From Brevibacterium sanguinis (GTDB lineage Bacteria > Actinomycetota > Actinomycetes > Actinomycetales > Brevibacteriaceae): 64,000 nucleotides of DNA. The stretch is from the NCBI RefSeq assembly GCF_003315415.1, contig NZ_QNSB01000008.1, positions 1 through 64,000 of the forward strand, written 5' to 3'. The translations under genes and the position numbers were made by a program. Positions 33,337-48,656 of the stretch are shown piece by piece. A model generated the notes under the pieces. It had not been told where the DNA came from and did not search any database. It was given only the letters and a program-made list of their open reading frames with translations. Each line of letters starts with the position of its first letter. The stretch's first letter is position 1.

Positions 33337-34650
33337 ATGACCGACACAGCAGAACCCTCGAGCGACGCGACCTTCCTCGCCGACTTCCACCACGTCGCGA
33401 CGATCGGCGCCACCGACAACAACGGAGTCGACCGGCAGGCCGCGACCGCCGAGGACGCCCGCACCCGGGACTGGATGCGCTCCTGGGCCGAGGCCAACGG
33501 CTTCGAGGTCCGCGTCGACGCGATCGGCAACATGTTCGCCTGCCTCGAGTTCGTGCCCGGCGCCCCCTACGTCCTCATCGGCTCCCACCTCGACTCCCAG
33601 CCGCTGGGCGGCAGGTTCGACGGCGCCTACGGTGTCATCGCCGCCCTGTTCGCGGCCCTGCGGGTCAAGGAGGCCGTCGCCGAGGCGGGGCCCGCCCCGA
33701 CGTACAACCTCGCCGTCGTCAACTGGTTCAACGAGGAGGGCGGGCGCTTCGCCCCGTCGATCATGGGCAGCTCGGTCTACGCGGGGCTGTTCGACCTCGA
33801 GGAGATGCTCGCCGTCACCGATCTCGAGGGGACGTCGGTCGCCGAGGCGCTGGCCGCCATCGGGTACGCCGGCACCGACACTCCGCCGGAGGCGATCACC
33901 TACGCCGAGATCCACATCGAGCAGGGCCGCATCCTCGAGCGGGAGGCGATCGACATCGGCGTCGTCGAGTCGAGCTGGTACACCCAGAAGCTCGATATCG
34001 ACGTCATCGGCGAACAGTCCCACACCGGCGCCACGGCGATGGCCGATCGCCACGACGCCCTCGTCTCCGCGGCGAAGGTCGTCCTCGCCGTCCACGACGT
34101 GACCAACGAGTTCGCCGACGAAGCCCTCGTCTCCTCCGTCGGTCAGCACGTCGTCGAACCCAACTCGCCGATCGTCGTGCCCCGCCGGGTGCACATGGTC
34201 GCCGACCTCCGGTCCTCCGACCCCGAGATCGTCCGGGCCGCCCGGGAGATCCTCCTCGACCAGATCGACACGATCGCCCGCGGGCACGACATCACGATCA
34301 ACGTCGAGGACTTCGACATCCGCGAGAAGCGCCACTTCCCCGAGGCCGGCGTGGAGCTCGCGGAGAAGGCCGTGGCCAACGAGGGACTGACCATCCGCCG
34401 ACTCGAGACGATGGCCGGGCACGACTCGGTCGCGCTCAACGCCCGGGTGCCCGCGGTGATGATGTTCGTCCCCAGCGTCGACGGCGTCTCCCACTGCGAG
34501 CGCGAGTTCACCACCGACGAGGACATGGTCCGCGGTCTCGGCGTCCTCACCCGCGTGGCCACCGAACTCGTCCACGGACAGCTCTCCGACGTCCGCGGAG
34601 GAGAGACCTGGGCCGGCAGGTCCGTGCGGACCGGGGCGGAGGCCCGGTGA
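33337..34650 (+). CDS. M20-family Zn-dependent hydrolase (N-carbamoyl-L-amino-acid hydrolase / beta-ureidopropionase type)
   Basis: A 437-residue amidase of the hydantoinase/carbamoylase branch of M20. Metal-site motifs in order: LIGSHLDSQPLGGRFDGAYG (His and bridging Asp) near 83-102, VVNWFNEEGGRFAPS (Glu pair), YAEIHIEQGRILE (His) and VDGVSHCEREF near the end. SHTGATAMADRHDALVSAAK marks the dimerisation domain. ATG 33337 has AAGGA about seven bases upstream; an earlier in-frame codon is not supported. It should remove a carbamoyl or similar group from an N-substituted amino acid. Its stop overlaps the amidase start region, so the two are translationally coupled. Confidence 0.88.
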   Translation: MTDTAEPSSDATFLADFHHVATIGATDNNGVDRQAATAEDARTRDWMRSWAEANGFEVRVDAIGNMFACLEFVPGAPYVLIGSHLDSQPLGGRFDGAYGVIAALFAALRVKEAVAEAGPAPTYNLAVVNWFNEEGGRFAPSIMGSSVYAGLFDLEEMLAVTDLEGTSVAEALAAIGYAGTDTPPEAITYAEIHIEQGRILEREAIDIGVVESSWYTQKLDIDVIGEQSHTGATAMADRHDALVSAAKVVLAVHDVTNEFADEALVSSVGQHVVEPNSPIVVPRRVHMVADLRSSDPEIVRAAREILLDQIDTIARGHDITINVEDFDIREKRHFPEAGVELAEKAVANEGLTIRRLETMAGHDSVALNARVPAVMMFVPSVDGVSHCEREFTTDEDMVRGLGVLTRVATELVHGQLSDVRGGETWAGRSVRTGAEAR

Positions 34651-36212
34651 TGACGACCGACGACCACCCCTCGGACGCCGCTGCCGTGACGTCGTTCGCG
34701 GGCTCAGGCCGCGCCTCGGAGGCCGCTGACGTGCCGTCGTCCGCGGGCTCAGCCCCCGCCTCGGCGGAGCCCTGGACCTGGACCGCCGCCGAGGCGCTCG
34801 CCACCTTCCGCACCCGGCAGCTGTCCCCGGTCGACTACCTCGATTCCCTCGCCGCGCGCATCGCCGAGCAGGACCCCGAGATCAACGCCGTCACCGAGGT
34901 CGTCGAGGAGGCGAGGTCCGCCGCCGTCGCGGCGGAGAGGGTCTATGCCTCGTCCTCGGAGGAGACCCTCGCCGAGGCGCTCGCCGCCCAGCCGCTGCTC
35001 GGCCTTCCCGTGCTCGCCAAGGAGAAGCACGCCCTGGCCGGGCACACGCTGAGCCAGGGACTCGTCCACCTGAGCGACGAGGTCGCGAGCGAGGATGCGA
35101 CGATCATCTCCCGCATCAGGGCCGCGGGAGGCTTCGTCCACGCCCGCGTCACCTCCCCGGAGTTCAGCTGCGCCACCTTCACCCACAGTCCGATGTGGGG
35201 AGTCACCCGCAATCCGTGGAACCTCGAGCTCTCGCCCGGCGGGTCCTCGGGCGGGTCCGGCGCGGGACTCGCCGCAGGCTACGGCCCGCTGGCCACCGCC
35301 TCGGACATCGCCGGGTCGACCCGGCTGCCGGCCGCGTTCACCGGCACGGTCGGGTACAAGGCACCCTACGGCCGCATCCCCGGGGCCGCTCCGCTCTCAC
35401 TCGACTGGTACCGCGGGGACGGGCCGATGGCGAGGACCGTCGCGGACACCGCACTGCTCGCGCAGGTGATGGTCGGAGTGGCGCCCGGGGACCACAGCTC
35501 GGTGCCGTCCCCGGGCTTCCTCGCCGGATTCGACGCGCTCTCCGGAGCCGTCGTCGACTCGCTGGCCGGGCGGCGCATCGCCCTGTGTGTGCGCCTCGGC
35601 GACTTCCCCGTCGCCGCCGACATCGAGGCGAACACCCGGAAGGTCGCCGCCGTCCTCGAATCCACGGGCGCGGTCGTCGAGGAGATCGAACTGCCGTGGA
35701 CGGTCGAGCGCATCTTCGAGACCGCATTCACCCATTTCGGGACCATCCTCGCCCCTGCCATGCGCGCCCTGACGCGGGGCCACGAGGACACGCTCGCCGA
35801 CTACACGCTGCGATTCATGGACGTCGCCGAGGCGATCGCCGCGCGGCGCAGCTTCTACGACGGACTCGCGATGGAGGCGCAGATCCAGGCGGAGCTCGCC
35901 ACCGCGATGGACGGGTACGACGTTCTCCTCGCCCCCACCTCGGCGGTGGCCGCGCTCGAGGCCGACGGCACCTACCTCGACGGGATCAGCGTCGGGGAGC
36001 GGACGTTCGAGCACTACTGGCAGGCCCACATGACGGTGCCGTTCAACATCGCCAATCGGGTCCCGATCGTCAACGTGCCCTCCGGCATGGCCGACTGCGG
36101 GATCCCGACCGGCCTGCAGGTCATCGGGCATCCCTACGAGGACCGCAGCGCCTTCGACGTCGCCGCGGCGATCGAGCAGCTCCTGCCGTGGACGGGGCTC
36201 GCGCCACGCTGA
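34650..36212 (+). CDS. Amidase-signature (AS) family amidase
   Basis: A 520-residue amidase of the Ser-cisSer-Lys type. Lys is in LPVLAKEKHALAGHTLSQG near 117-135 and the glycine-serine stretch is LSPGGSSGGSGAGLAAGYGP near 195-214, followed by ATASDIAGSTRLPAAFTGTVG with the cis-Ser and nucleophile Ser. ATG 34650 follows GGAGG with seven bases' spacing; GTG 34647, overlapping the upstream TGA, is also possible. Residues ~10-45 are an Ala/Ser-rich leader made of a 15-residue tandem repeat, absent from typical amidases. It probably finishes amide hydrolysis begun by the M20 enzyme. Confidence 0.9.
   Translation: MTTDDHPSDAAAVTSFAGSGRASEAADVPSSAGSAPASAEPWTWTAAEALATFRTRQLSPVDYLDSLAARIAEQDPEINAVTEVVEEARSAAVAAERVYASSSEETLAEALAAQPLLGLPVLAKEKHALAGHTLSQGLVHLSDEVASEDATIISRIRAAGGFVHARVTSPEFSCATFTHSPMWGVTRNPWNLELSPGGSSGGSGAGLAAGYGPLATASDIAGSTRLPAAFTGTVGYKAPYGRIPGAAPLSLDWYRGDGPMARTVADTALLAQVMVGVAPGDHSSVPSPGFLAGFDALSGAVVDSLAGRRIALCVRLGDFPVAADIEANTRKVAAVLESTGAVVEEIELPWTVERIFETAFTHFGTILAPAMRALTRGHEDTLADYTLRFMDVAEAIAARRSFYDGLAMEAQIQAELATAMDGYDVLLAPTSAVAALEADGTYLDGISVGERTFEHYWQAHMTVPFNIANRVPIVNVPSGMADCGIPTGLQVIGHPYEDRSAFDVAAAIEQLLPWTGLAPR
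34677..34766 (+). repeat. 45-bp tandem duplication inside the amidase N-terminus
   Basis: Two imperfect copies of a 45-base unit (34677-34721 and 34722-34766) keep the reading frame and encode two 15-residue Ala/Ser-rich repeats. The two copies differ at only a handful of positions, pointing to fairly recent slippage duplication. Confidence 0.75.
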
Positions 36213-37003: not shown

Positions 37004-37738
37004 TCAGCGGACGACCAGTGTGAGTGCCGCCTCGACGATGACGAGCACTGCGCCCACGATCGACGCGCAGATGGCAATTCGGTAGAGCACTGTGCGGTCG
37101 GCTCGGCGGATGACGGGGTTCGACAGCCAGAGCCCCACGATCATGAACGGCACCAGGCTGGCCGCGGCGATCAGGTGAACCGCGGTGACCTCGCCGCTGA
37201 TTGCCAGACCGGTGAGCGACAGAACGGTGCCCAGGGTGAAGTACGCGCTCATCGTCGACCGCATCGCCGACGGTTCGAGTGAACGGAGCACAAGTGAGAT
37301 CGGCGGACCGCCAATACTGGTTGCGGTGCCGAAGACCCCTGAGACAGCGCTGGTCACGACCATGTTCCGCCTGCTCGCAATCGGCGCCCAGCCGTTCATG
37401 CTGAAAGCGACTCCACCGAGCACCGTGAGAGCCAACAGGACGGACAGTCCGGCCTGTGGCAGCAGCACCACGGCGACCGTTCCGACCACGATGCCGGGCA
37501 ATCGGCCGAGTACTCCCCAGCCGACGAGGCTCCAATCGACATCGGACCGTTCGCGCAGAAACGCTGTCAGCGACGTGAGCACGGCGAGAAGCAGCAAGGC
37601 CGAAGGGAGAAGGTCGGGACGCAGGAGCGCCAGCACGGGGGCCGTGATCATGCCGAGGCCGAACCCGATCGAACCCTGCAGACACGCCGAGCCGAGCACC
37701 ACCGTACCGATGATGATGATGAAGTGGGCGAGCTCCAC
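37004..37738 (-). CDS. TauE/SafE-family membrane transporter
   Basis: A 244-residue membrane protein with about eight segments and the family's repeat pattern: GSACLQGSIGFGLGMITAPVL near 16-36 and SAVSGVFGTATSIGGPPISL near 130-150, each with a Gly-rich G.G.G half. Members export sulfite, sulfoacetate or other small organic anions. GTG 37738 has AAGGAG nine bases upstream. It is divergent from the Nramp-like transporter at the start of the sugar-acid cluster and shares its operator-containing intergenic region, so it may be part of that regulon. The substrate is unknown. Confidence 0.82.
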   Translation of the reverse strand: MELAHFIIIIGTVVLGSACLQGSIGFGLGMITAPVLALLRPDLLPSALLLLAVLTSLTAFLRERSDVDWSLVGWGVLGRLPGIVVGTVAVVLLPQAGLSVLLALTVLGGVAFSMNGWAPIASRRNMVVTSAVSGVFGTATSIGGPPISLVLRSLEPSAMRSTMSAYFTLGTVLSLTGLAISGEVTAVHLIAAASLVPFMIVGLWLSNPVIRRADRTVLYRIAICASIVGAVLVIVEAALTLVVR

Positions 37739-37855
37739 GGGATTCCGCTCCTTAGCGAGGTGTGACCTGGGGTGCGTAGATTACGCCTCTACTCTGCCAC
37801 AGTGTTGCGCGTTATGTGCTGAGATCCTTAGGGAAACCGCGAAATGATGCGCAGA

Positions 37856-37873
37856 CTACGCAGAAATGCGCTA
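37856..37873. promoter_or_regulatory. Candidate cluster operator, site A
   Basis: This segment contains GAAATGCGC (37863-37871), which recurs exactly in site B (43993-44001). A related GCGAAATGATGCGCAG lies just upstream from about 37839. It sits in the divergent region between the TauE/SafE and Nramp-like genes. Confidence 0.5.
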
Positions 37874-37976: not shown

Positions 37977-39350
37977 ATGGCCAGCGACGTCCATAGCTCT
38001 ATCAACTCTCCTCAGTCTTCGAAACCGGAGCAGGTGCCCATTCCGCGTGGCCTCGGCCTCATCACCTCGGTGGGGCCGGGCCTTGTGCTCGCGATGTCCT
38101 TCTTGGGGACGGGCGACCTCGTGAGTTCGTCGGTCTCGGGAGCATCGTACGGCTACGCCCTGCTGTGGACCCTGGTCCTCTCACTGATCGCGCGCACATT
38201 CATCATCTCGTCCATCGCCAAGTACACGCTGATGAACAGGTATGGGGACACGCAGATCCTTGACGGGTTCGCGCGGCTCTCCCCCGCACTCCCAGGAATC
38301 ATGGCTGCAGTCGTGCTCATCGCCGGCTTCATCACGCAGGCGACCTTCGTTCTCGCAGCGGCGACCGGCCTGCACGAACTCACCGGTGGTGAGTGGGGAG
38401 GGACATGGGGACGATTCCTGTGCGCGGTGATCATCGTGGCTCTGACCCTGACTCTTGTCATGCTGCGCAAGCAGTTCACTGTGCTCGAATACTTCGCGAG
38501 GTTCGCCTCCGTCGCGATGATCGCTGCCTTCGTCTATGCGCTGATCCAGATCGGCACGTTCGATCTCTCGGCGTTCTTCCAGGGCCTCGCTTTCGAGATT
38601 CCGGCGGAGCAGAACACTTCGGCATTCGCTCCCATCGTCATCGCTTCAGCGACCATCGGCACCATCGCCGGCAACATGCCCAACCTGCTGTATTCCGGCT
38701 TCATGCGCGACAAGGGCTGGGTGGGACCGAAATACCGCAAGCTGCAGCAGTTCGACCTCATCGTCGGCATGGCTCCGCTGCTCATCATCAACCTCCTGTT
38801 CTGGATCGTGGCCGCCGAGTTCCGAGCCGGACACACCGGTTTCTCGATCTCCGATGAATACGACCTGTCTCATATGCTCACCGTCGCCGTCGGACCGATC
38901 GGTCCGTTCCTCCTGTGGATGTGCATCTTCTTCGCAGCGATGACGAGCTTCCCACCTCAATCGCGCGGTTTCGCCCAACTGGCGATCAACGGAATCAACC
39001 ACACTTTTCCCTCGATGCGCCAGTACCTTGGCCGGGATGAGGAGAATCCGGCCTTCCGGTGGATCCAGGCGATCGTCTTCATCATCGTCCCCCTGGTGTC
39101 GACCATTCCGGGTGCTCCCGACCTCATCTCCCTCAACATCGTCGGCACGGCGATCTCGACGGTGCTGAGCCTGCCCATCATCGTCGTCTGCATTCTCCTG
39201 CTCACTTCGCGCAAGAAGCACATGCAGGATTACGCCGTGAATCGGTTCTGGCAGACTGGACTGCTGATGCTCCTCGGTGCTATCGCGATCATCATCGGAT
39301 TCCAGATCGCTATGCAGATCCCCTCCATGTTCGAAACTGCTTTCGGCTGA
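37977..39350 (+). CDS. Nramp-fold transporter without the metal-binding motif (type 1)
   Basis: A 457-residue, 11-12-segment LeuT-fold protein related to the Nramp family. The overall pattern is Nramp: GLGLITSVGPGLVLAMSFLG in TM1a, then the unwound region. The canonical TM1 DPGN is replaced by GTGD, and the TM6 MPH is MPN (IAGNMPNLLYSGFMRDKG near 227-244). The direct metal ligands are thus missing, and Mn2+/Fe2+ transport is unlikely. The gene precedes a BNR sialidase-fold gene, in a cluster of sugar-acid enzymes with an operator shared by two other promoters. I infer transport of an organic cluster substrate; that is not shown by homology. Confidence 0.8.
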   Translation: MASDVHSSINSPQSSKPEQVPIPRGLGLITSVGPGLVLAMSFLGTGDLVSSSVSGASYGYALLWTLVLSLIARTFIISSIAKYTLMNRYGDTQILDGFARLSPALPGIMAAVVLIAGFITQATFVLAAATGLHELTGGEWGGTWGRFLCAVIIVALTLTLVMLRKQFTVLEYFARFASVAMIAAFVYALIQIGTFDLSAFFQGLAFEIPAEQNTSAFAPIVIASATIGTIAGNMPNLLYSGFMRDKGWVGPKYRKLQQFDLIVGMAPLLIINLLFWIVAAEFRAGHTGFSISDEYDLSHMLTVAVGPIGPFLLWMCIFFAAMTSFPPQSRGFAQLAINGINHTFPSMRQYLGRDEENPAFRWIQAIVFIIVPLVSTIPGAPDLISLNIVGTAISTVLSLPIIVVCILLLTSRKKHMQDYAVNRFWQTGLLMLLGAIAIIIGFQIAMQIPSMFETAFG

Positions 39351-39439: not shown

Positions 39440-40609
39440 ATGACCTTGCTCTCGCGCTCGACTCTCGAGCAAGTGGCAGCACCGGCCGCCGACGGTCGAT
39501 TGCGATTCTTCGAGGATTCCGGCAGCGCCGCAGCTGTCATTCCCACCGACCGCAGATCCAACCATGCCCCCTCGATACTGGCGCCGAGGGGCGGCGGCCT
39601 GCTTGCGGCCTGGTTCGGGGGAAGCGACGAGGGGAACAAGGACATCGACATCCTGGTCTCCCGCTTCGATGGAAGGACGCGGCAATGGTCGGAGTCGGCT
39701 GCCGTGACCGATGACGAGATCCGATCGGATCAGAATCCGGGGCTGTTCGAGACTCCGGGAGGCCAGATATGGCTGGTCTACACCTCTCAGCTCTCACGTC
39801 AGTCCGGTGTGCCTGAGACGTTCAATCTTCAGCACACTTCCGTCGTCAAGGTGATCAGATCCGATGACGGTGGGGCCACGTGGAGCAAGCCGGAGACCCT
39901 CTTCGATCGGGAGGGCACGTTCTGTCGTCAGCCCATCCAGATTCTCAGCGATGGCACGTGGGCGCATGCCCAATGGCTGTGCTTTGACGACGATTCGAAG
40001 AACGGGTCGGACCAGCCGGTACTCCAGATCTCGGAGGACTCCGGAACCACTTGGCACCAAGTCGAATTCCCTGACAGTGCCGGACGTGTCCACCCCAACG
40101 TCGTCGAACTCGAGCGAGGCCGCCTCGTGTGCCTGTTCCGTTCACGGTTCGCCGATTGGGTCTATCTCAGTCGGTCGGAGGACGGCGGGGCGACGTGGAG
40201 CGCTCCTGAACCCACCGAGGTGCCGAACAACAATGCGGGTCTGAGTGCTTTCCGCTTGCCTTCGGGGATGCTCGCATTGGTCTCCAACGAACATCAGGTT
40301 GCGGCTGGCCCCGGCGATGTTGTGTGGCCCTATGAGCGCATGCGCATCGTCATTGCGGTCTCTGCAGACGAGGGCCGCACCTGGCCTGTGCGCCGAGTGA
40401 TCGAGCCCGGCGACGGCTTCTGCGGGGAAGGGAACCTTCGCAGCAACCGACGTCAGGAGTATCCGCACGGGATCGTTGACGCAGAAGGCCTCATTCACGT
40501 CGTCTACGCATACAACTCACGTCGGGCCGTTCGGCACGTCGTCTTCGCGGAGGATTGGATCTCGGGCGTTGAGGACCAGGTGCACACCGACTGCAAACTC
40601 TGGGGATGA
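39440..40609 (+). CDS. BNR-repeat sialidase-fold protein, cytosolic
   Basis: A 389-residue six-bladed beta-propeller protein of the sialidase superfamily (BNR_2 type). Four Asp-boxes (S-x-D-x-G-x-T-W) can be read: SDDGGATWS near 134, SEDSGTTWH near 197, SEDGGATWS near 234 and SADEGRTWP near 304. ATG 39440 follows AGGAG by five bases, and there is no signal peptide. That is odd for a sialidase and suggests an intracellular enzyme acting on an imported small molecule. The neighbours are sugar-acid kinase, dehydrogenase and aldolase genes, with no nanA-nanK-nanE set. The label sialidase should therefore be read as a fold, not an activity. Confidence 0.82.
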   Translation: MTLLSRSTLEQVAAPAADGRLRFFEDSGSAAAVIPTDRRSNHAPSILAPRGGGLLAAWFGGSDEGNKDIDILVSRFDGRTRQWSESAAVTDDEIRSDQNPGLFETPGGQIWLVYTSQLSRQSGVPETFNLQHTSVVKVIRSDDGGATWSKPETLFDREGTFCRQPIQILSDGTWAHAQWLCFDDDSKNGSDQPVLQISEDSGTTWHQVEFPDSAGRVHPNVVELERGRLVCLFRSRFADWVYLSRSEDGGATWSAPEPTEVPNNNAGLSAFRLPSGMLALVSNEHQVAAGPGDVVWPYERMRIVIAVSADEGRTWPVRRVIEPGDGFCGEGNLRSNRRQEYPHGIVDAEGLIHVVYAYNSRRAVRHVVFAEDWISGVEDQVHTDCKLWG

Positions 40610-40660: not shown

Positions 40661-41440
40661 TCAGATTGCGTGACCTGAGGGATCCACTCGGACCACGGTG
40701 ATACCCCGGGACTCGAAAGGTTCGACCTGCTCGAGAGTTGCAGAGGAGTCGGTCACGAGGGTCCACCCGTTGCCCAGGTCGGCCCATGCATGGAACGGTC
40801 GCTGACCCAGCTTTGCGGAGTGCGCGACGACGTAGACGTGTGCAGCTCGCCTGCTCATCAGCTCTTTGAGGCGAACCTGCTCCTGGGTCGCCTCGCACAC
40901 ACCGTCCTCCGCGGTGACCGCGTCGGCGCCGAGGAACGCGAAGTCGAAGGTGAACTTCTCCAAGCCCGCTTCGGTGACCGGGCCGATGAACCCTTGGCTG
41001 ATCGTTCGATACCGCCCGCCGAGCAAGGTGAACTCCACGCCTTCTGCATCGTTCATCTGCTGCAGCGAGGTGAGACCGGTGGACACGACGGCGAGCGGAC
41101 CACAGGTGCGCAGAGCGCGGGCGACCTGCGCGATGGTGCTGCCCGCATCAAGCAGCACATGGGATCCCGCGGGAACCTTTCGAGCGCACCATGCACCCAG
41201 CGCCTGCTTGACGTCAGGAGCTTCGTGGGACCGTTCGTCCAAGGAGCTTTCGGAATGGGATGGCACGGCGATGACACCGCCGTAGGTCCGAGCCAGGTCG
41301 CCCGACTCGGTGAGTCTGGCGAGGTCTCGACGAATGGTCGATGCAGTGACGTCGAGCATCTCCGAGAGTGACTCGACGCTCATCTCGCCCTGTGATCTCA
41401 CGAGTTGGACGATCTGTTCGCGTCGGTCTCCAGCGTTCAT
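40661..41440 (-). CDS. DeoR-family transcriptional regulator
   Basis: A 259-residue DeoR/GlpR-type repressor. The HTH region is RREQIVQLVRSQGEMSVESL, then SEMLDVTASTIRRDLARLTE near 6-45, with the family's TIRRDL signature and GDLARTYGGV following. The ligand domain is the ISOCOT/DeoRC sugar-phosphate sensor: VLLDAGSTIAQVARAL near 94-109, FIGPVTEAGLEKFTFDFAFLG and GVCEATQEQVRLKELM. It is the only regulator in the sugar-acid cluster. A phosphorylated intermediate, such as the product of the DUF1537 kinase, is the likely effector. Sites A-C are its candidate operators. Confidence 0.9.
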   Translation of the reverse strand: MNAGDRREQIVQLVRSQGEMSVESLSEMLDVTASTIRRDLARLTESGDLARTYGGVIAVPSHSESSLDERSHEAPDVKQALGAWCARKVPAGSHVLLDAGSTIAQVARALRTCGPLAVVSTGLTSLQQMNDAEGVEFTLLGGRYRTISQGFIGPVTEAGLEKFTFDFAFLGADAVTAEDGVCEATQEQVRLKELMSRRAAHVYVVAHSAKLGQRPFHAWADLGNGWTLVTDSSATLEQVEPFESRGITVVRVDPSGHAI

Positions 41441-41644: not shown

Positions 41645-42664
41645 TCAGCGGGTGACTGATGCCGGCTCTGTGGAGGCCGATGCCAGCGCGGCGGCTTGGC
41701 GCATCGCCTCGCTCATGCTGGCAGTGTCCGCCTTGCCGGTACCGGCGATGTCGAAGGCGGTGCCGTGGTCCACCGAGGTGCGGATGACGGGGAGGCCGAC
41801 GGTGATGTTCACTCCGGCTTCGATGCCCAGCACCTTGATCGGGCCGTGACCCTGATCGTGATACATGGCGACGATCAGGTCGTAGTCCCCGCGTCCGGCG
41901 AGGAAGAAGGCGGTATCGGCTGGCAGCGGTCCAACCGCGTCGATGCCGTCGGCGGTGAGCACCTCGATGGCAGGCGTGATCTTCTCCTCTTCCTCGCCGT
42001 ACCCGAAGAGACCGTTCTCTCCGGCGTGCGGATTGATCGCACAGACTCCGATGTGCGGCTGTGCGATGCCTGCTCGCACAAGTGCTTCATGGCCTCGGCG
42101 CACAGTGCGCTCGACCAGGCCGGGCTCGATCTTCGCGATCGCGTCGATGAGACCGATATGAGTCGTGACATGGATGACCCGCAAGCTGGGCGAAGACAGC
42201 ATCATCGAGACCTCTTCTGTTCCCGTGAGGGCGGCGAGCATCTCTGTGTGCCCCGGATAGTTGTGTCCGGCGGCGTGCAGTGCTTCCTTGTTGAGGGGAG
42301 CGGTGCAGATCGCCTGCACCTCGCCTGCCATGGCCAATCCGGCTGCGCGCTCGATGTAGCGGAAGGCGGCGTCCCCGGCAACTGGGGACAGTTCGCCCCA
42401 AGCGAGGTCTGGAGGAAGCAGACCGAGGTCGATGACGTTGATGACGCCTGGAACCTGCTTCGCCATGGAGGCCGAGTCGACGACACGGACCACTGCATCC
42501 CTGTCGAGAATCCTTGCCGCCTCTTCCAGGCGGGCGGCATCTCCGATGATCACCGGTTCCGATACGGCCAACACAGAAGGATCGAGGCATGCGGCGACGC
42601 AGATCTCCGGACCGACACCGGCCCCATCACCCATCGTGACGGCGACAGTGGGAAGCGCATTCAT
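41645..42664 (-). CDS. PdxA-family dehydrogenase (PdxA2-type, four-carbon acid phosphate)
   Basis: A 339-residue metal- and NAD-dependent dehydrogenase/decarboxylase of the PdxA family. The N-terminus VAVTMGDGAGVGPEICVAAC is the family signature. NYPGHTEMLAALTG near 135, VTTHIGLIDAI near 165, CAINPHAGENGLFGYGEEEE near 208-227 and MYHDQGHGPIKVLG near 265 carry the metal His residues. It starts with ATGA overlapping the stop of the DUF1537 kinase. That pairing defines the PdxA2 subgroup, which oxidises D-threonate or D-erythronate 4-phosphate and releases CO2 to give dihydroxyacetone phosphate. A role in pyridoxine synthesis is therefore unlikely. Confidence 0.9.
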   Translation of the reverse strand: MNALPTVAVTMGDGAGVGPEICVAACLDPSVLAVSEPVIIGDAARLEEAARILDRDAVVRVVDSASMAKQVPGVINVIDLGLLPPDLAWGELSPVAGDAAFRYIERAAGLAMAGEVQAICTAPLNKEALHAAGHNYPGHTEMLAALTGTEEVSMMLSSPSLRVIHVTTHIGLIDAIAKIEPGLVERTVRRGHEALVRAGIAQPHIGVCAINPHAGENGLFGYGEEEEKITPAIEVLTADGIDAVGPLPADTAFFLAGRGDYDLIVAMYHDQGHGPIKVLGIEAGVNITVGLPVIRTSVDHGTAFDIAGTGKADTASMSEAMRQAAALASASTEPASVTR

Positions 42665-43941
42665 TGGTTCTCCTTCATGGTTCCAACGGTGGAAGTCGAG
42701 TAGTTATCGAGGTGCTCGGCCAAAGCAGCGTGGATGAGAGTCAGTGAGTCCTCGTCCCCATGACCTCCCGGCCGGGTGACGACGCCGCTGACGGCTGCGC
42801 TGTCGACCGCGGAGAGGACGGCACCGGGGTGAATCTCCTTCCGCACGGTGAGGCTCATGATGTCCAGTCGGTCGAGGACCGCGCGAGCGGTCTCCCCGCC
42901 GGCCGCGGCGAGTCGGACAGTCTCGGAATCGCGAAGGACCTGCGCGGTCAGTTCGGCGAGCAGGCCGGGAAGGGGGCGAGGGTCGACCGCCGCCCCGTCG
43001 GAGGTGAGACGGACGATGACGTCGCCTCTCGCCAACTGCGACCGCACGTCGTCAGCCGTGCGTGACAGAGCAGCGCGGTCGGACCTCCAGCTCAGTACCT
43101 GTGACGCGCGAAGATCGACGACCTGGACGTCGGCGTGAGCGCTGAGGTGGGCTATCTGGTCGTTCACTCGGCGGGCTGCGGTTCCCAGGACGAAGAGCAC
43201 TCGCGTCGGTTCAGCGCCGGCGCCGGAAGAACCCGGGCCGGGACTTGCGAGCTGATGAACGGAACGACGATCCGCGAAGGCTCGGGCGAGTGCCGCCGAG
43301 CCGACGAGGACTGCACCGCTGTCCCGGGCCAGATCGATGATCCGCCTCAGGTCATCCATAGTGGCCGCGTCGGCGATGATGAGGCGGGAACCGGCGAGCG
43401 ATGCGAGAGTGTTCCGACCCGATGACCGCAGTGACTCGAGTGTGATGTGCCCCGGCCGTTCGGGGCAGAGATCGCTGAGATGCGCGGGTGCGGCAGCACC
43501 CTCGATGCTCCAGGCCGAGGTGGCGGCCAGAGGTATGCCGTCGTTGAGCGGCACGCCGTCGACCACGGTGCGATTCAGCTGAGGCAGGGCCGGTGAGAAG
43601 ATCACAGGACCGTCGGTGGAACTGAGCGAGGCGCGAAGATGGGCGCGGATGTTCCCACGAAGCAGCGAATCGACCTTGATGAAGACTGTCCTGCCTGAGC
43701 GCAGGTCAGTGATGGCAGACGCAGTCCGAGTCATCGCTTCGGTGGGGGAGAGATAACGGCAGTCGAGATCCACGGCGACGTCGGGGGTGCAGCAGTACTC
43801 GGTGGATCTGCGATTGGAATGATCGAGGGGGTCAGCCCTTGTCAGCAGGATGGGCACGGGCGGGCCGAGCGTCACGGCCGACTCCGCGGCACCGCTGAGG
43901 TCGTCGGCAAGGACGAGAAGGCCGTTGTCGACAGATGTCAT
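42661..43941 (-). CDS. DUF1537-family four-carbon acid sugar kinase
   Basis: A 426-residue kinase of the DUF1537 group. The N-terminal domain begins LLVLADDLSGAAESAVTLG near 8-26 and contains TVFIKVDSLLRGNIRAHL near 100-117 (substrate Asp and Arg). The C-terminal nucleotide-binding domain holds VLFVLGTAARRVNDQI near 274 and RLAAAGGETARAVLDRL near 360-376 with the GGET motif. ATG 43941 follows AAGGAG by five bases. Family members phosphorylate D-threonate, D-erythronate, L-threonate or 3-oxo-tetronates at C4. Coupling to a PdxA2-type enzyme rather than to an aldolase/isomerase pair favours threonate or erythronate. It is divergent from the aldo/keto reductase. Confidence 0.88.
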   Translation of the reverse strand: MTSVDNGLLVLADDLSGAAESAVTLGPPVPILLTRADPLDHSNRRSTEYCCTPDVAVDLDCRYLSPTEAMTRTASAITDLRSGRTVFIKVDSLLRGNIRAHLRASLSSTDGPVIFSPALPQLNRTVVDGVPLNDGIPLAATSAWSIEGAAAPAHLSDLCPERPGHITLESLRSSGRNTLASLAGSRLIIADAATMDDLRRIIDLARDSGAVLVGSAALARAFADRRSVHQLASPGPGSSGAGAEPTRVLFVLGTAARRVNDQIAHLSAHADVQVVDLRASQVLSWRSDRAALSRTADDVRSQLARGDVIVRLTSDGAAVDPRPLPGLLAELTAQVLRDSETVRLAAAGGETARAVLDRLDIMSLTVRKEIHPGAVLSAVDSAAVSGVVTRPGGHGDEDSLTLIHAALAEHLDNYSTSTVGTMKENQ

Positions 43942-43986: not shown

Positions 43987-44003
43987 CTGCGTGAAATGCG
44001 CAA
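43987..44003. promoter_or_regulatory. Candidate cluster operator, site B
   Basis: CTGCGTGAAATGCGCAA matches site C (48640-48656) at 16 of 17 positions and shares GAAATGCGC with site A. A second GCGCAGAAATGG lies 25 bases downstream. It is in the 131-base divergent region between the kinase and aldo/keto reductase genes. Confidence 0.6.
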
Positions 44004-44072: not shown

Positions 44073-45053
44073 ATGACCGCAGACAGGAATATCGACATCG
44101 ACGGGGTTCCGGTACCACTGACGCCGTTGGTGTTGGGCACGATGACCTTCGGGGACACCGTCGATGAGGCGACGGCGCACGAGGTGATCGAGGCCGCGAT
44201 CGCTGCCGGAATCACAGGCATCGACACCGCGAACGGCTACGCGAAGTCGACCACGGAATCGCTGATCTCCCCGATGGTCAAGAAGCACCGGGACACGATC
44301 GTGCTCGCGACCAAAGCCGGAATGCCCCATGCTGACGCGGGCGAGAACTCGCCGCTCTCGGCAGCGGGACTGCGCGCCAGCATCGAAGGCTCGCTGCGCC
44401 GACTCGACGTCGACTCCATCGACCTCTTCTACCTCCACCAGCCCGATCGCGCCGCGAGCACGGCCGAGACGCTCGACACCATCGCGCAGCTGCATGCCGA
44501 AGGCAAGATCAGAGCTCTGGGCATCTCGAACTTCGCGGCGTGGCAGGCTGTCGACCTCCAGACGGCAGCTGCCGCCGCAGGCGCTCCGCTTCCCGTCATC
44601 GCGCAGAACGTCTACAGCGTGCTGGCACGGCGGATCGAGGACGAATGGCTCGAATGCGCGTCAGTGCACGGAATTGCCACCATGGCCTACAATCCGCTGG
44701 CCGGTGGTCTGCTGGCCAGGCGTCCTTCCGTCGAGGGAACCCCGGATCGCTTCACCGGCTCGGTTCTGGCACAGATGTACTCCCAGCGCTATCTCTCCGA
44801 TTCGGTCCTCGCCGCCGTCGAGGCATTCGCGGAAGTGGCAGATGAGGCGGGAATGCCCCAAGCAGAGTTGGCGCTGCGCTGGGTGGCCGGAGCGGCCGGC
44901 GTCGACTCGCTGCTTCTGGGCGCGAGTCGTGTCTCCCAGCTCGAGTCGAATCTCGCCTCGATCGCCAAGGGACCGCTTCCCGATGACGTGCTCACTGCGA
45001 TCGACTCCGCCACTGCCGCGGTCCGCGGTTCGCAGCCGAAGTACAACCGCTGA
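44073..45053 (+). CDS. Aldo/keto reductase
   Basis: A 326-residue NAD(P)H-dependent AKR with the full catalytic tetrad: Asp51 and Tyr56 in GIDTANGYAKS, Lys81 in LATKAGM, and His122 in FYLHQPD. LLLGASRVSQLESNL near the C-terminus is the coenzyme phosphate-binding region. GAGGAG precedes the ATG by seven bases. It shares a 131-base divergent promoter region with the kinase and is followed after 70 bases by a DHDPS-family aldolase. It may oxidise or reduce a sugar, sugar acid or aldehyde produced by that aldolase. Confidence 0.9.
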   Translation: MTADRNIDIDGVPVPLTPLVLGTMTFGDTVDEATAHEVIEAAIAAGITGIDTANGYAKSTTESLISPMVKKHRDTIVLATKAGMPHADAGENSPLSAAGLRASIEGSLRRLDVDSIDLFYLHQPDRAASTAETLDTIAQLHAEGKIRALGISNFAAWQAVDLQTAAAAAGAPLPVIAQNVYSVLARRIEDEWLECASVHGIATMAYNPLAGGLLARRPSVEGTPDRFTGSVLAQMYSQRYLSDSVLAAVEAFAEVADEAGMPQAELALRWVAGAAGVDSLLLGASRVSQLESNLASIAKGPLPDDVLTAIDSATAAVRGSQPKYNR

Positions 45054-45123: not shown

Positions 45124-46017
45124 ATGTCCTCCATCAAGGGAATTCTCGCCGCGATCGCCACGCCGTTCGACGACGACGAGCAGATCGACGAGGCGGCCCT
45201 GCGAGCGCACGTACGCCGCCAACTCGAGGCCGGGGTCCACGGCATCTTCGCCTTGGGCACCAACGGCGAGTTCTACGCGCAGTCCGCGGCTGAGCGTGCA
45301 GAGGCAGCACGCATCGTCATCGACGAGGTCGCGGGTCAGGTGCCTGTCGTCATCGGCGCCGGTGCCGCCACCACTCGCGAGACGATCCGCATCGCGGAGG
45401 ACGCAGCCGCAGCCGGAGCAGATGCTCTCTCGATCATCACACCCTACTTCGCAGCCGCCTCACAGGCGGAGATCGAGAACCACTTCCGCGCAGTCGCCGA
45501 CTCCGTGGGCACTCCGGTCGTCGTCTACAACATCCCCGCACGCACCGGCAATGCCGTCGCTCCCGCCACGCTCGAGAAGCTGGCGGCTGTCGACAACATC
45601 ACTGCGGTCAAGGATTCGAGCGGCAACTTCGACACTATTCTCCAGTATCTCGAGCGCACGGACCGGGGCGGCTTCGATGTGATCTCCGGCAACGATTCGC
45701 TCATCCTCTGGACCCTCATAGCCGGCGGTGCCGGTGGCATCAGCGGCATCGCGAACATCTACCCGAAAACCATGGCCGCGATATACGATCTGTTCCTCGA
45801 CGGGGATGTCGAGGCGGCGCGGACCGCGCAGGACAGCATCCGACCGATCCGCAACTGCCTGGCACTCGGCAACCCCAACACCGTGGTCAAGCATGCGGCC
45901 AACGCCCGTGGTTTTGGACTGGGACCCGCCCGCGCCCCGTTCAACGCACTGTCCGTCGAGGCGAAACAGCAGATCGAAGCCACTGTCATGGCAGACGTGG
46001 AGCGCGGCTTGGCGTAA
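45124..46017 (+). CDS. DHDPS/NAL/KDG-aldolase family enzyme
   Basis: A 297-residue class I lyase of the DHDPS family, with GTNGE at residues 45-49 (carboxylate-binding loop), Tyr135 in VVYNIPARTG and the Schiff-base Lys163 in AVKDSSG. The residue after GT is Asn, unlike the GTTGE or GSTGE of most lysine-biosynthetic enzymes. With the catabolic context this favours a 2-keto-3-deoxy-acid or related aldolase that releases pyruvate. It follows the aldo/keto reductase on the same strand and ends before two strong convergent hairpins. The exact sugar acid cannot be named. Confidence 0.88.
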   Translation: MSSIKGILAAIATPFDDDEQIDEAALRAHVRRQLEAGVHGIFALGTNGEFYAQSAAERAEAARIVIDEVAGQVPVVIGAGAATTRETIRIAEDAAAAGADALSIITPYFAAASQAEIENHFRAVADSVGTPVVVYNIPARTGNAVAPATLEKLAAVDNITAVKDSSGNFDTILQYLERTDRGGFDVISGNDSLILWTLIAGGAGGISGIANIYPKTMAAIYDLFLDGDVEAARTAQDSIRPIRNCLALGNPNTVVKHAANARGFGLGPARAPFNALSVEAKQQIEATVMADVERGLA

Positions 46018-46157: not shown

Positions 46158-47102
46158 TCAGTGCACGGGGAACCGGGGTTCCTCTCCCTGCAGCACCCGA
46201 ACCACATCCTCGACGGCCCAGGATCCCATGTTCGCGTTCGCGATATCGGAATAGGCGCCGATGTGTGGCGTGGCGATGAGATTGGGTGCGTGCAGCAGCG
46301 GGTCATCCGCGGCCGGGGGTTCGGTGGCGAAAGCGTCGAGTGCAGCGAACGACAGATTTCCCTCGTGCAGCGCCGAGGCGAGTGCGGGCTCGTCGACCAG
46401 CCCGCCGCGAGCGGCATTGATGAGGCCCGCGCCCGCAGGCATCGACTCGATGAGCTCCCGATGGAGCAGGGGCTCATCTCCAGCAGGCAGGTGGAGAGTG
46501 AGGAAATCCGAGCCGGCGACGGCCTCGGCGAGGCTCATCGGGACGGCACCTGCCTCCGCGATGGCGTGATCAGGGACGAACGGATCGTATGCTGCGATCC
46601 GCATTCCGAACCCGACCGCCCGCCTGGCGACCGCGCGTCCGATTCGGCCGAAGCCGAGGATGCCCAACTGCTTCCCGGTGAGCTCCGTGCCGAAGAAGAC
46701 TTCCCACCTGCCGGCGCGCAGTGAGTCCTCTGCCTCTCGGATGCGACGCGCTCCCATGATCAGCAGGCCCATCGTCAGATCCGCGACGGCATCGGCATTG
46801 GCACCAGGGGTGTTGACGACTGTGACCCCCGCCGCCGCAGCGGCATCGAGGTCGATGTTGTCCACACCGGCGCCGTGCTTCGCGACAACCTTGAGTTCAG
46901 GACACGCGGCGAGGACGTCGGCGTCGATCGTGTCGAGACCGACGAGGACCGCCTCTGCCCCGGCCAGAGCATCGATGAGCGTCTGGCCGGATTTCGGGTG
47001 GTTCTCGGTCCGATGATCGAGCTCGAGGCCCAGCGCAGCGGCACGAGCGATCGGAGTCGACGAGAGCTTTCCGAACGACGGGGTGAGTACTGTCAGTCGC
47101 AT
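46158..47102 (-). CDS. D-isomer-specific 2-hydroxyacid dehydrogenase
   Basis: A 314-residue NAD-dependent dehydrogenase of the phosphoglycerate/D-lactate dehydrogenase family, without an ACT domain. The Rossmann motif is LGILGFGRIGRAVARRAVGFG near 143-163. The catalytic Arg is in LINAARGGLVDEPAL near 226-240, the Glu about 28 residues on, and the His in IATPHIGAYSD near 286-296. Its ATG overlaps the stop of the upstream Nramp-like gene, so the pair is co-translated. It probably interconverts a 2-hydroxyacid and a 2-oxoacid in the sugar-acid route fed by that transporter. Confidence 0.9.
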   Translation of the reverse strand: MRLTVLTPSFGKLSSTPIARAAALGLELDHRTENHPKSGQTLIDALAGAEAVLVGLDTIDADVLAACPELKVVAKHGAGVDNIDLDAAAAAGVTVVNTPGANADAVADLTMGLLIMGARRIREAEDSLRAGRWEVFFGTELTGKQLGILGFGRIGRAVARRAVGFGMRIAAYDPFVPDHAIAEAGAVPMSLAEAVAGSDFLTLHLPAGDEPLLHRELIESMPAGAGLINAARGGLVDEPALASALHEGNLSFAALDAFATEPPAADDPLLHAPNLIATPHIGAYSDIANANMGSWAVEDVVRVLQGEEPRFPVH

Positions 47103-48535
47103 CAGGCCCCGATCTCGATGCCGAAGGTTTCGAACACCGAGTAGATGCCCAGGAGGGCGATCGCCAGCGAAGCGAAGACGAGCATGACGGTGAAGAAGTT
47201 GTTGGACTTGAATTCAGCGGGGACTTCGCGTGATCGGAGGTGCCAGACGGCGATGACGACAGCGACGAGGAAGATGCCGCTGGCGACCCCGCCGATCTGC
47301 ACCATGATGACCGGTGACTGGATGATGAGGTAGCCGATCGCCCAGAGGATGGGGAAGGCCACCGTCAGTGCGCGGATGATCCGCGTTCGTGTCGCGAGAT
47401 TATCCCAATCGAAGAACCCGAGGATCGAAAGAGTGTTCGTCCACAGCCGGGGCACGCTCGCGGAGGAGGCGATGAAGGTCGAGAACAGGACGGCGAATGC
47501 GCCGATGAGGAAGATCCAGCGACCGGCTTCGCCCATGGTGGAGGAGTACATGGACGACAGGGTGGTGATCATGTCGTTGCCTTCGGGGACGAGACCCTGA
47601 GGGTGGAGGATGGCGGCTCCGATGACGTAGAAGGACATCGTGCAGACGGTGGAGATGATCCAGGAGACGAGGACGTCAGTGCGCATGACGGAGATCCATC
47701 CGTGCGCGCGCCGTGCGCGTTCCGCGCTGCCATCGTTCGGCCCCGTGTAGCGGGCGTAGCCCTTCTCGAGGCACCAGTAGGTGTAGGTGGTCATTTCGTC
47801 CGCGCCGACTCCGGTGATGCCGAACATGGCGACTGCGAAGCCGAGCGTGCCCGCGGGGATGGCGAACGTCAGCCCGCTGAGAACGTCCGCCGAGGTGTAG
47901 GCGAAGTCCGTGAAGGGCAGGGAGACCGCGAGTCCGACGGTGGAGACCGTGAAGATGATGACAGCGCCGACCGAGAGCTTCTCGACGATGCTGTACTTGT
48001 TCGTCACCAACAGTGAGATGACGACGGCCAGCGCGACGACCGTCCAGAAGACGAGCGATGGAGTGGAGAGGGGATCGCCGAAGACCGGGATCATGATGCT
48101 CAGGGCTGCCACTGCGCCGCCGATGATTCCTCCGCGCTGCAGCACCTTGGCGAAGTCCATGAGGATCCACAGCAGGTTGATCCACCCGGCCCGACCGAAC
48201 AAGCGGGGCCCGACATGTCCGTAGCCTTCGAGCGCGGGCTTGCCGGAGAGAATGGTCCACTGAGCGATTTCCAGCTGGATCCAGACTTTGACCGCAGTCG
48301 AGATGATGACGAGCCAGAGCAGGACGAACCCTGCTTTCGCACCGAGCGCTGTGGTGGTGATGAGCTCTCCGGATCCGATCACCGCGGCGGAGATGACCAG
48401 GCCGGGTCCGAGGTACTTGAGCTTGCCCGCGAAGGTGGTGGGCGGCTCGAGCACATCCTTGGGGTCGAGCCGATAGGGGTCGACCGTTGCTCGCGGGGCG
48501 AACTCCTCGACGCTGTCAGTGTGATTCGTTGTCAT
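47102..48535 (-). CDS. Nramp-fold transporter without the metal-binding motif (type 2)
   Basis: A 477-residue LeuT-fold protein in the wider Nramp family, unlike the first one. TM1 reads YLGPGLVISAAVIGSGELIT near 40-59, with GSGE where DPGN belongs. TM6 reads FGITGVGADEMTTYTYWCLE near 221-240, with ADEM in place of the metal-binding MPH. Acidic groups remain (Glu in GSGE, Asp-Glu in ADEM), so proton or cation coupling is possible. ATG 48535 follows AAGGAAG by seven bases. It overlaps the hydroxyacid dehydrogenase gene, which ties it to sugar-acid metabolism rather than metal uptake. Confidence 0.8.
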   Translation of the reverse strand: MTTNHTDSVEEFAPRATVDPYRLDPKDVLEPPTTFAGKLKYLGPGLVISAAVIGSGELITTTALGAKAGFVLLWLVIISTAVKVWIQLEIAQWTILSGKPALEGYGHVGPRLFGRAGWINLLWILMDFAKVLQRGGIIGGAVAALSIMIPVFGDPLSTPSLVFWTVVALAVVISLLVTNKYSIVEKLSVGAVIIFTVSTVGLAVSLPFTDFAYTSADVLSGLTFAIPAGTLGFAVAMFGITGVGADEMTTYTYWCLEKGYARYTGPNDGSAERARRAHGWISVMRTDVLVSWIISTVCTMSFYVIGAAILHPQGLVPEGNDMITTLSSMYSSTMGEAGRWIFLIGAFAVLFSTFIASSASVPRLWTNTLSILGFFDWDNLATRTRIIRALTVAFPILWAIGYLIIQSPVIMVQIGGVASGIFLVAVVIAVWHLRSREVPAEFKSNNFFTVMLVFASLAIALLGIYSVFETFGIEIGA

Positions 48536-48639: not shown

Positions 48640-48656
48640 CTGCGTGATATGCGCAA
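48640..48656. promoter_or_regulatory. Candidate cluster operator, site C
   Basis: CTGCGTGATATGCGCAA differs from site B at one of 17 positions. A further related TTGCGCGAAATGTGA lies at 48547-48561, nearer the ATG. Both are upstream of the second Nramp-like gene. Confidence 0.6.

Follow-up and report, generated by a model that had tools for sequence, protein, structure and literature searches.

An Nramp-fold protein without canonical metal-site residues is linked to sugar-acid catabolism genes in Brevibacterium and is probably an organic-acid importer

A 64,000-nucleotide stretch of the Brevibacterium sanguinis genome (contig NZ_QNSB01000008.1, positions 1 to 64,000; the window) contains an intact, ATG-started open reading frame at 37,977 to 39,350 on the plus strand, which encodes a 457-residue Nramp-fold, Nramp-related (G-motif) carrier that we call NrampA. 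Automatic annotation calls Nramp-related members metal transporters. Because NrampA is without the metal-binding residues and is tied to genes of sugar-acid breakdown, it is probably an organic-acid importer, and the name metal transporter is likely wrong for it. We consider it likely that NrampA is a secondary transporter importing an organic sugar acid for its catabolic cluster, and very likely that it carries an organic solute of some kind. From the genomic context, which supports an organic substrate well, we infer the transport itself.

NrampA keeps the Nramp fold and has lost the metal-site and proton-path residues

NrampA scores 83 bits against the PF01566 profile (cut-off 29.8). It also scores 57.8 bits against NCBIfam NF037982, "Nramp family divalent metal transporter," which is above the curated cut-off of 50; this confers an automatic name and is no test of function. 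Against the MntH model NF001923 it reached only 34.5 bits, with a cut-off of 430. An AlphaFold2 model, made with an alignment of 62 sequences (61 of the 79 loci described below and the window protein), had a mean predicted local distance difference test score of 83.2 and a predicted template-modeling (pTM) score of 0.82. Its best match among solved structures was DraNramp 6d91 (Foldseek E 2.9e-12), on which it superposed with a Z score of 40.0 and a root-mean-square deviation of 2.8 over 389 residues. As modeled, NrampA keeps the Nramp fold, and the view of the initial annotation that the membrane architecture is retained stands on the pTM and Z scores.

The metal-binding motifs were placed by two alignments, one of a clade profile with DraNramp and one made by MAFFT with 13 canonical proteins, and the results agreed. 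DraNramp D56, N59, A227, M230, and H232 correspond to NrampA G44, D47, T229, G232, and M234, in DraNramp numbering consistent with the text of PMC12873925. The first transmembrane segment (TM1) is broken at GTGD (residues 44 to 47; 38,106 to 38,117, plus strand), which replaces DPGN as the initial annotation had stated, and the model breaks the helix at residues 43-44. The TM6 break is G232-N-M-P-N236-L-L-Y239 (38,670 to 38,693, plus strand), with a model helix break at 232-233 and with support from both alignments and clade conservation. The initial annotation had equated MPN (residues 234 to 236) with MPH, which we reject, since in both alignments it is two residues out of register and the positions of DraNramp M230-P231-H232 are held by G232-N233-M234. 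Its broader claim that both metal-binding motifs are altered is borne out, all five residues being replaced. In the MAFFT alignment, the TM3 acids E124, D131, and E134 are L114, Q121, and F124 in NrampA; the comparison of the proton path covers these TM3 positions, since the reference has no TM9 RR pair. Judged from its sequence, NrampA is without the canonical metal-site and proton-path residues.

The altered residues are conserved. Across 78 clade sequences (an alignment that leaves out L116 and L118, which have internal stops; L numbers are our locus handles), G44-x-G46-D47 (D47 in 76/78), G232, N236 (77/78), and Y239 are kept, as are R73, N87, Q257, W276, and E281. Within MPN only the N is kept, and M and P vary. 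Position 73 is Arg in 34/34 clade rows and Ala in 13/13 canonical rows of the MAFFT alignment. GTGD and GNMPN are identical in all 11 congeneric NrampA orthologues found; thus, the altered motifs are not due to chance.

NrampA lies outside the canonical metal transporters

Trees were made with FastTree from 89 rows (including 33 of the 79 loci and the window protein) and with IQ-TREE from 66 of those 89. Apart from canonical and PxpT, the groups carry labels of our own; the NRMT-like group (L142-L149) was assigned by motifs, and the PxpT rows are proteins beside pxp-like genes in Brevibacterium and relatives, not the Corynebacterium glutamicum protein itself. In the IQ-TREE tree, the NrampA, canonical, NRMT-like, DIGD, GAxD, NrampB, and PxpT groups were each set apart from all other rows by a branch with a bootstrap value of 99-100. 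The NrampA clade was supported at 100/100, the canonical clade, without NrampA, at 100/99, and the NRMT-like clade at 100/98. A position inside the canonical metal transporters, which the initial annotation had named beforehand as a possible refuter, is rejected by this tree; by phylogeny, NrampA lies outside that clade. FastTree united the NrampA clade, GAxD, and NrampB in one 48-tip set at a support of 0.999, and the set with PxpT added at 0.888. NrampA did not group with the NRMT-like proteins, whose TM1 Asp and TM3 Glu it does not have, or with the PxpT rows in either tree. It belongs to PF01566, has no DPGN or MPH, and has Gly for the TM1 Asp, as Nramp-related (G-motif) proteins do.

A conserved sugar-acid gene cluster surrounds NrampA

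The gene after NrampA, in the same direction, encodes a BNR_2 (sialidase-like propeller) protein (39,440 to 40,609, plus strand; PF13088, 205.9 bits). Three genes on the minus strand follow, for a DeoR-family regulator (40,661 to 41,440; PF00455, PF08220), a PdxA2-type 4-phospho-sugar-acid dehydrogenase (41,645 to 42,664; PF04166), and a four-carbon acid sugar kinase (42,661 to 43,941; DUF1537, SBD_N plus NBD_C; PF07005, PF17042). An aldo/keto reductase (44,073 to 45,053; PF00248) and a DHDPS/NAL-family aldolase or dehydratase (45,124 to 46,017; PF00701) are then encoded on the plus strand, and a D-2-hydroxyacid dehydrogenase (46,158 to 47,102; PF00389, PF02826) and a second Nramp-related carrier, NrampB (47,102 to 48,535; PF01566, 50.1 bits), on the minus strand. 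NrampB has GSGE in TM1 and is distantly related to NrampA (19% identical). Divergent from NrampA is a conserved neighbor, a TauE/SafE-family membrane protein gene (37,004 to 37,738, minus strand; PF01925).

The PDB relatives of the window PdxA include D-threonate 4-phosphate dehydrogenase, and PdxJ was not found in the source genome, so that this PdxA is unlikely to serve pyridoxine synthesis. Those of the window DHDPS-family protein are mostly DapA, followed by the 2-keto-3-deoxy-galactonate aldolase YagE. The initial annotation had placed NrampA at the head of a sugar-acid cluster. The link to the cluster holds, but there is no clear operon head, as the DeoR, PdxA, and kinase genes are on the opposite strand.

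NrampA orthologues (87-94% identical) are present in 11 of 36 congeners and in none of 22 order-mates. BNR_2 orthologues (77-88%) have the same distribution in the genus as NrampA, in 12 of 37 genomes with the window genome included, and three order-mates carry BNR_2 relatives at 39-42%. The whole ten-gene run was detected in 10 of the 11 congener stretches fetched, some of which end within NrampB; the eleventh stops short of it. By tblastn, the kinase is present at 11/11 Brevibacterium NrampA loci. NrampB is tied less tightly, as two further congeners have NrampB (86%) without NrampA. In two of the 11 congeners (L031, L038), BNR_2 was matched in two pieces while the adjoining genes look whole; the BNR_2 gene may be dispensable.

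An operator-like palindrome recurs in the cluster

An operator-like palindrome of the pattern TGCGYRNNNYRCGCA is found at three places in the window: TGCGCAGACTACGCA (37,848 to 37,862, plus strand), some 115-130 bp upstream of NrampA; TGCGTGAAATGCGCA (43,988 to 44,002, plus strand), in the gap between the kinase and aldo/keto reductase genes; and TGCGTGATATGCGCA (48,641 to 48,655, plus strand), upstream of NrampB. The pattern was written post hoc, with the window's intergenic sequence and the DNA upstream of NrampA in eight congeners already viewed, and it is in that light that the three sites, against 0.20 expected, are to be read. The congener kinase and NrampB promoters were not inspected before the pattern was fixed. 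Genome-wide, there are 11 distinct sites in 3.77 Mb, and the reversed control pattern has 3.

In the congeners, the palindrome lies 107-135 bp before NrampA in 11/11 and in the kinase/reductase gap in 11/11, so that all 12 Brevibacterium genomes with the cluster have both sites. Of the 10 genomes whose NrampB upstream region was seen, the window included, 9 have the palindrome there, and L182 has no exact site. Additional sites fall inside genes at several congener loci. In mononucleotide-shuffled NrampA upstream regions, the palindrome arose at a rate of 0.00025 each. Beyond the genus, Brachybacterium phenoliresistens (76% identical) has the palindrome ahead of NrampA, of NrampB, and of a fused kinase-PdxA gene. 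The DeoR-family regulator is the candidate reader of the palindrome. A first guess at the palindrome, GCGTANNNTACGC with up to 2 mismatches, was not enriched (18 found, 20.09 expected) and was dropped.

The link to sugar-acid genes extends to other phyla

Relatives were sought with two peptide patterns in one genome per species (84,980 species), which gave 213 candidates, of which the best 79 loci were kept. Several loci end at contig ends (for example, L062, L081, L088, and L127), and the neighbor counts are therefore lower bounds. NrampA-like proteins (46-76%) were found in Brachybacterium, Brooklawnia, Terribacillus, Virgibacillus, Kushneria, Salinicola, Halomonas, a gammaproteobacterium, and Hephaestia, a range that takes in Bacillota and Proteobacteria. 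At the 11 loci of other genera, DHDPS, kinase, and PdxA genes were each present within 7 kb in 10/11, at least one of the three in 11/11, and BNR_2 in 5/11. At 40 control PF01566 loci (12 canonical, 8 NRMT-like, 12 DIGD, 6 GAxD, and 2 PxpT-like), none of DHDPS, kinase, PdxA, MR_MLE, HpcH, or GD_AH was found. Among 68 loci of the NrampA clade, a set that leaves out the 11 Brevibacterium orthologue loci, 34 had any of these six families (Fisher p 3e-9) and 27 had DHDPS (p 4e-7), values that are not true probabilities, given the kinship of the loci and the single class from which every control comes. PxpBC-like genes were within 7 kb of 0/79 NrampA-clade loci and of 4/5 PxpT-like loci. Taken with the genus synteny and the shared palindrome, these counts make the linkage to sugar-acid catabolism, as first proposed, strong and conserved.

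Kinase and PdxA are fused in one frame in Kushneria (L067:12224-14557) and Brachybacterium (L061:12578-14809), and in a Caballeronia SBC2 record one long pdxA gene spans the kinase match; such fusion is in keeping with successive steps. On a Croceibacterium plasmid (sponge source), a 48% NrampA homologue adjoins kinase, PdxA, DHDPS-family, and Fe-ADH genes as well as genes for pectate lyase, GH28, pectinesterase, and GH95.

NrampA probably occupies the place of the substrate carrier

The order Nramp, DHDPS, kinase, PdxA, 3-hydroxyisobutyrate-type dehydrogenase, (BNR_2), DeoR is shared by L066, L067, L068, and L070, and in these four no other open reading frame has more than two predicted membrane segments. 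By a simple hydropathy count, the Nramp protein is the sole polytopic protein of the run in 8/11 loci (also L065, L069, L071, and L074), of which L065, L069, and L074 are close relatives, making the independent cases fewer than eight.

We also viewed the neighbors, 6 kb on each side, of 9 of 32 plasmid kinase matches, for which the gene tables are incomplete. In 8/9, the stretch shown has no Nramp and another carrier instead. Caballeronia sp. SBC2 has an SSS carrier in a run that matches in its other genes (dapA, Fe-ADH, kinase-PdxA, sialidase, and DeoR); an MFS carrier stands at the Pantoea and Comamonadaceae loci, the latter with a tripartite tricarboxylate binding protein; a KdgT-type permease is at four loci; and Rhizobium has ABC genes. 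The ninth locus, in Rubrobacter, has a GSGE-type Nramp among lactate-utilization, kinase, and PdxA genes. In the three order-mates with BNR_2 relatives, dipeptide-type ABC genes (named by eye) are near them.

Proposed pathway and substrate

In the mechanism that we propose, the DeoR-type repressor would bind the palindrome and be released by a sugar-acid intermediate, and NrampA would then bring the sugar acid into the cell. The DHDPS-family enzyme would cleave a 2-keto-3-deoxy (ulosonic or ulosaric) acid, yielding pyruvate and a C4 semialdehyde; a reductase would turn the semialdehyde into a tetronate, and the kinase and PdxA2 would convert the tetronate to dihydroxyacetone phosphate. Within NrampA, the broken TM1 (G44-T45-G46) could hold the substrate carboxylate by backbone amides, like TM1 of the APC amino-acid carriers, with D47 perhaps serving for coupling. 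In the accessible text on GkApcT (PMC5803215), the substrate carboxyl touches the TM1 amides of Thr43 and Gly44, and in that on BasC (PMC6472337), those of Ala20 and Gly21. By analogy, a G-T-G break in TM1 of a related fold suggests the same carboxylate use in NrampA.

Our best guess at the substrate is a 2-keto-3-deoxy (ulosonic) or four-carbon sugar acid. A scan of ten window proteins found no enolase-, IlvD-, or GD_AH-type sugar-acid dehydratase, and an enolase-type gene lies within 7 kb at 1/11 Brevibacterium loci. DHDPS-family enzymes can themselves be dehydratases. The closest PDB relative of the Kushneria dehydrogenase is tartronate-semialdehyde reductase, and this, the likeness to YagE, and the missing dehydratase among the ten proteins fit an acid that is already 2-keto-3-deoxy. 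The 3-deoxy-lyxo-heptulosaric acid of pectin would fit as a substrate. The ulosonic-acid version, taken by itself, is a tentative and somewhat doubtful assignment.

Alternative roles for NrampA

PdxA-type dehydrogenases and kinases require divalent metals, so that a metal supplier in the same operon would make sense; NrampA might bring in Mn2+, Mg2+, or Co2+ for the metal-dependent enzymes of the pathway and be co-regulated for that reason. This and several further points weigh against import of an organic acid. The fold is that of Nramp. NrmT has yielded Mg2+/Mn2+ data, and an NrmT-group protein without the M-box seemed to be mainly an Mn2+ carrier. YcsG (MntG), a PF01566-type protein in a pxp operon, has been argued to be an Mn2+ importer in the accessible text of PMC10448178. 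The acidic D47 (76/78) is near where the carboxylate would be placed, and hhalign, with a one-sequence partner alignment, gave a probability of 0.4% that GTGD is homologous to the GTG in a carrier named by eye as CAT-type, which leaves the TM1 comparison an analogy only. A scan of seven NrampA loci at greater distance did not find the palindrome. None of the six sugar-acid families was found at 31 of 53 wider NrampA-clade loci (22/53 positive) or at 3 of 4 loci of a 35-39% group (1/4 positive), and the controls all come from the window's class while the clade loci come from many phyla. At the Terribacillus halophilus locus (L064), an MFS carrier adjoins the Nramp. We also dropped the missing metal regulator as an argument: a DtxR-like neighbor was found at 0/12 canonical controls too, and its absence at NrampA therefore says nothing. 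Metal supply is nonetheless unlikely in our judgment, because every canonical site residue is replaced and the TM3 acids are gone; the source genome already has a canonical DPGN/MPH Nramp, whose adjoining gene is DtxR-like by eye; and, with Rubrobacter the exception, the related modules viewed (eight of nine) have a carrier for organic solutes and lack an Nramp within the stretch shown. Were NrampA a metal supplier, the runs in which it is the sole polytopic protein would be left with no substrate carrier.

The last observation bears equally on the direction of transport. Were TauE/SafE or NrampB the importer in Brevibacterium, NrampA could export or exchange an organic acid, as an overflow product or antiport partner; both genes are in the same cluster, and the palindrome is also upstream of NrampB. 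With NrampA the only polytopic protein in 8/11 runs, and with a TauE-like gene found by phmmer at just 1/11 non-Brevibacterium loci (Brachybacterium) and at none in other phyla, we regard this as very unlikely. It is also conceivable that the solute is nitrogenous or of another organic kind, such as an amino-sugar acid or a cyclic amide, and that a larger conjugate stands upstream of the sugar-acid enzymes. PxpT offers a precedent, paralogues adjoin amidases, and the sialidase-like BNR_2 protein suggests a conjugate or a sialic-type acid. However, no amidase was found near NrampA at the 11 loci of other genera, and the amidase matches at 8 of the 11 Brevibacterium loci correspond, as seen in the window, to a separate gene at 34,647 to 36,212; the chance of such a substrate is slight indeed. 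Import of a sugar acid is thus the reading we prefer.

Relation to known carriers

The initial annotation had seen a new function for the family, a claim that goes too far. C. glutamicum is reported to need pxpT, which encodes a PF01566-type relative of YcsG, for growth on 5-oxoproline, an organic-acid precedent in which, in the accessible text, metal transport was not excluded (PMC13274462), and Nramp-related proteins without DPGN and MPH have been described (Ray, Berry and Gaudet 2026; PMC12873925), in whose accessible text the groups are uncharacterized except EleNRMT and the hypothesized MntG. NrampA shares with these G-motif groups the lack of DPGN, MPH, and the proton path and very probably belongs to one of them; the accessible text offers them no substrate except that of the hypothesized MntG. 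Among the matches listed, in titles and abstract openings of the open-licence literature, we found no sugar-acid-linked Nramp. Thus, an organic substrate in the Nramp fold is not new, and the sugar-acid tie, the operator, and the evidence from the carrier slot were not found in that literature among those matches.

PxpT/YcsG (TCDB 2.A.55) resembles NrampA in its PF01566 fold, its Gly for the TM1 Asp and TM6 Met, and its organic-acid catabolic neighbors. It differs in forming its own clade (100/100), in having GPGF and GGY where NrampA has GTGD and GNM, and in being linked to pxpABC rather than to kinase, PdxA, and DHDPS genes, and its substrate in Bacillus subtilis is disputed. The EleNRMT-type Mg2+ transporters likewise have the Nramp fold and no proton path, but the NRMT-like controls keep the TM1 D (8/8) and an acid at TM3 E134 (8/8), neither of which NrampA has, and form a separate clade. 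Canonical Nramp/MntH proteins (DraNramp, EcoDMT) share the fold (Z 40.0 to 6d91), whereas DPGN, MPH, E124, D131, and E134 are all replaced in NrampA, which is outside their clade. The APC carriers (GkApcT, BasC, and AdiC) share the LeuT-type fold (AdiC Z 26.6) and a Gly-rich TM1 break, which in them binds the substrate carboxylate; they belong to another Pfam family, with no sequence relation detectable in the one hhalign test.

The locus offers a concrete, testable substrate class and a candidate operator, and it points to organisms of the Bacillota and Pseudomonadota whose short catabolic runs encode no polytopic protein besides the carrier. More broadly, the G-motif superclade (the NrampA, NrampB, and GAxD clades, with PxpT beside them) may consist of organic-acid carriers that read carboxylates through a Gly-rich TM1, to which we give slightly less than an even chance. 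If so, a substantial share of the genes annotated "divalent metal transporter" encode proteins that carry no metal, and transport of metals is a single specialized branch of the fold. The locus would also be informative about the history of the Nramp fold, in particular whether organic solutes were its starting point or a later return.

Other Nramp-related genes and their neighbors

The source genome has eight PF01566 proteins (nine matches, two of which are pieces of one broken gene). Its PxpT-like gene (C1:290274-291372; L044) lies beside pxpA- and pxpBC-like genes and is frameshifted in the assembly; with the L044 piece as the query, a frame of at least 425 residues spans it in 26 of 36 congeners. 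Two further Nramp-related paralogues in the source genome, with GAGD and GASD (L042:6851-9689 and L043:5936-9539), adjoin amidase genes, an organic rather than a metal context. A sister subfamily with GAGDLV and SMAN (L047:2988-5278, L112, and L115) adjoins DHDPS-family and mandelate-racemase-type enolase genes in Brevibacterium epidermidis and in a relative, which suggests an aldaric-acid pathway. Relatives of NrampB are near galactarate/altronate dehydratase and DHDPS (L188), DeoC (L187), a xylose-isomerase-like protein (L186), hydantoinase-like genes (L184, by eye), and lactate-utilization genes (L205). Finally, on plasmids of Mycobacterium dioxanotrophicus and Rhodococcus pseudokoreensis (L192 and L193), 36-37% homologues stand by FAD-linked oxidase, CoA-transferase, and FCD-type regulator genes, an organic setting of another kind.

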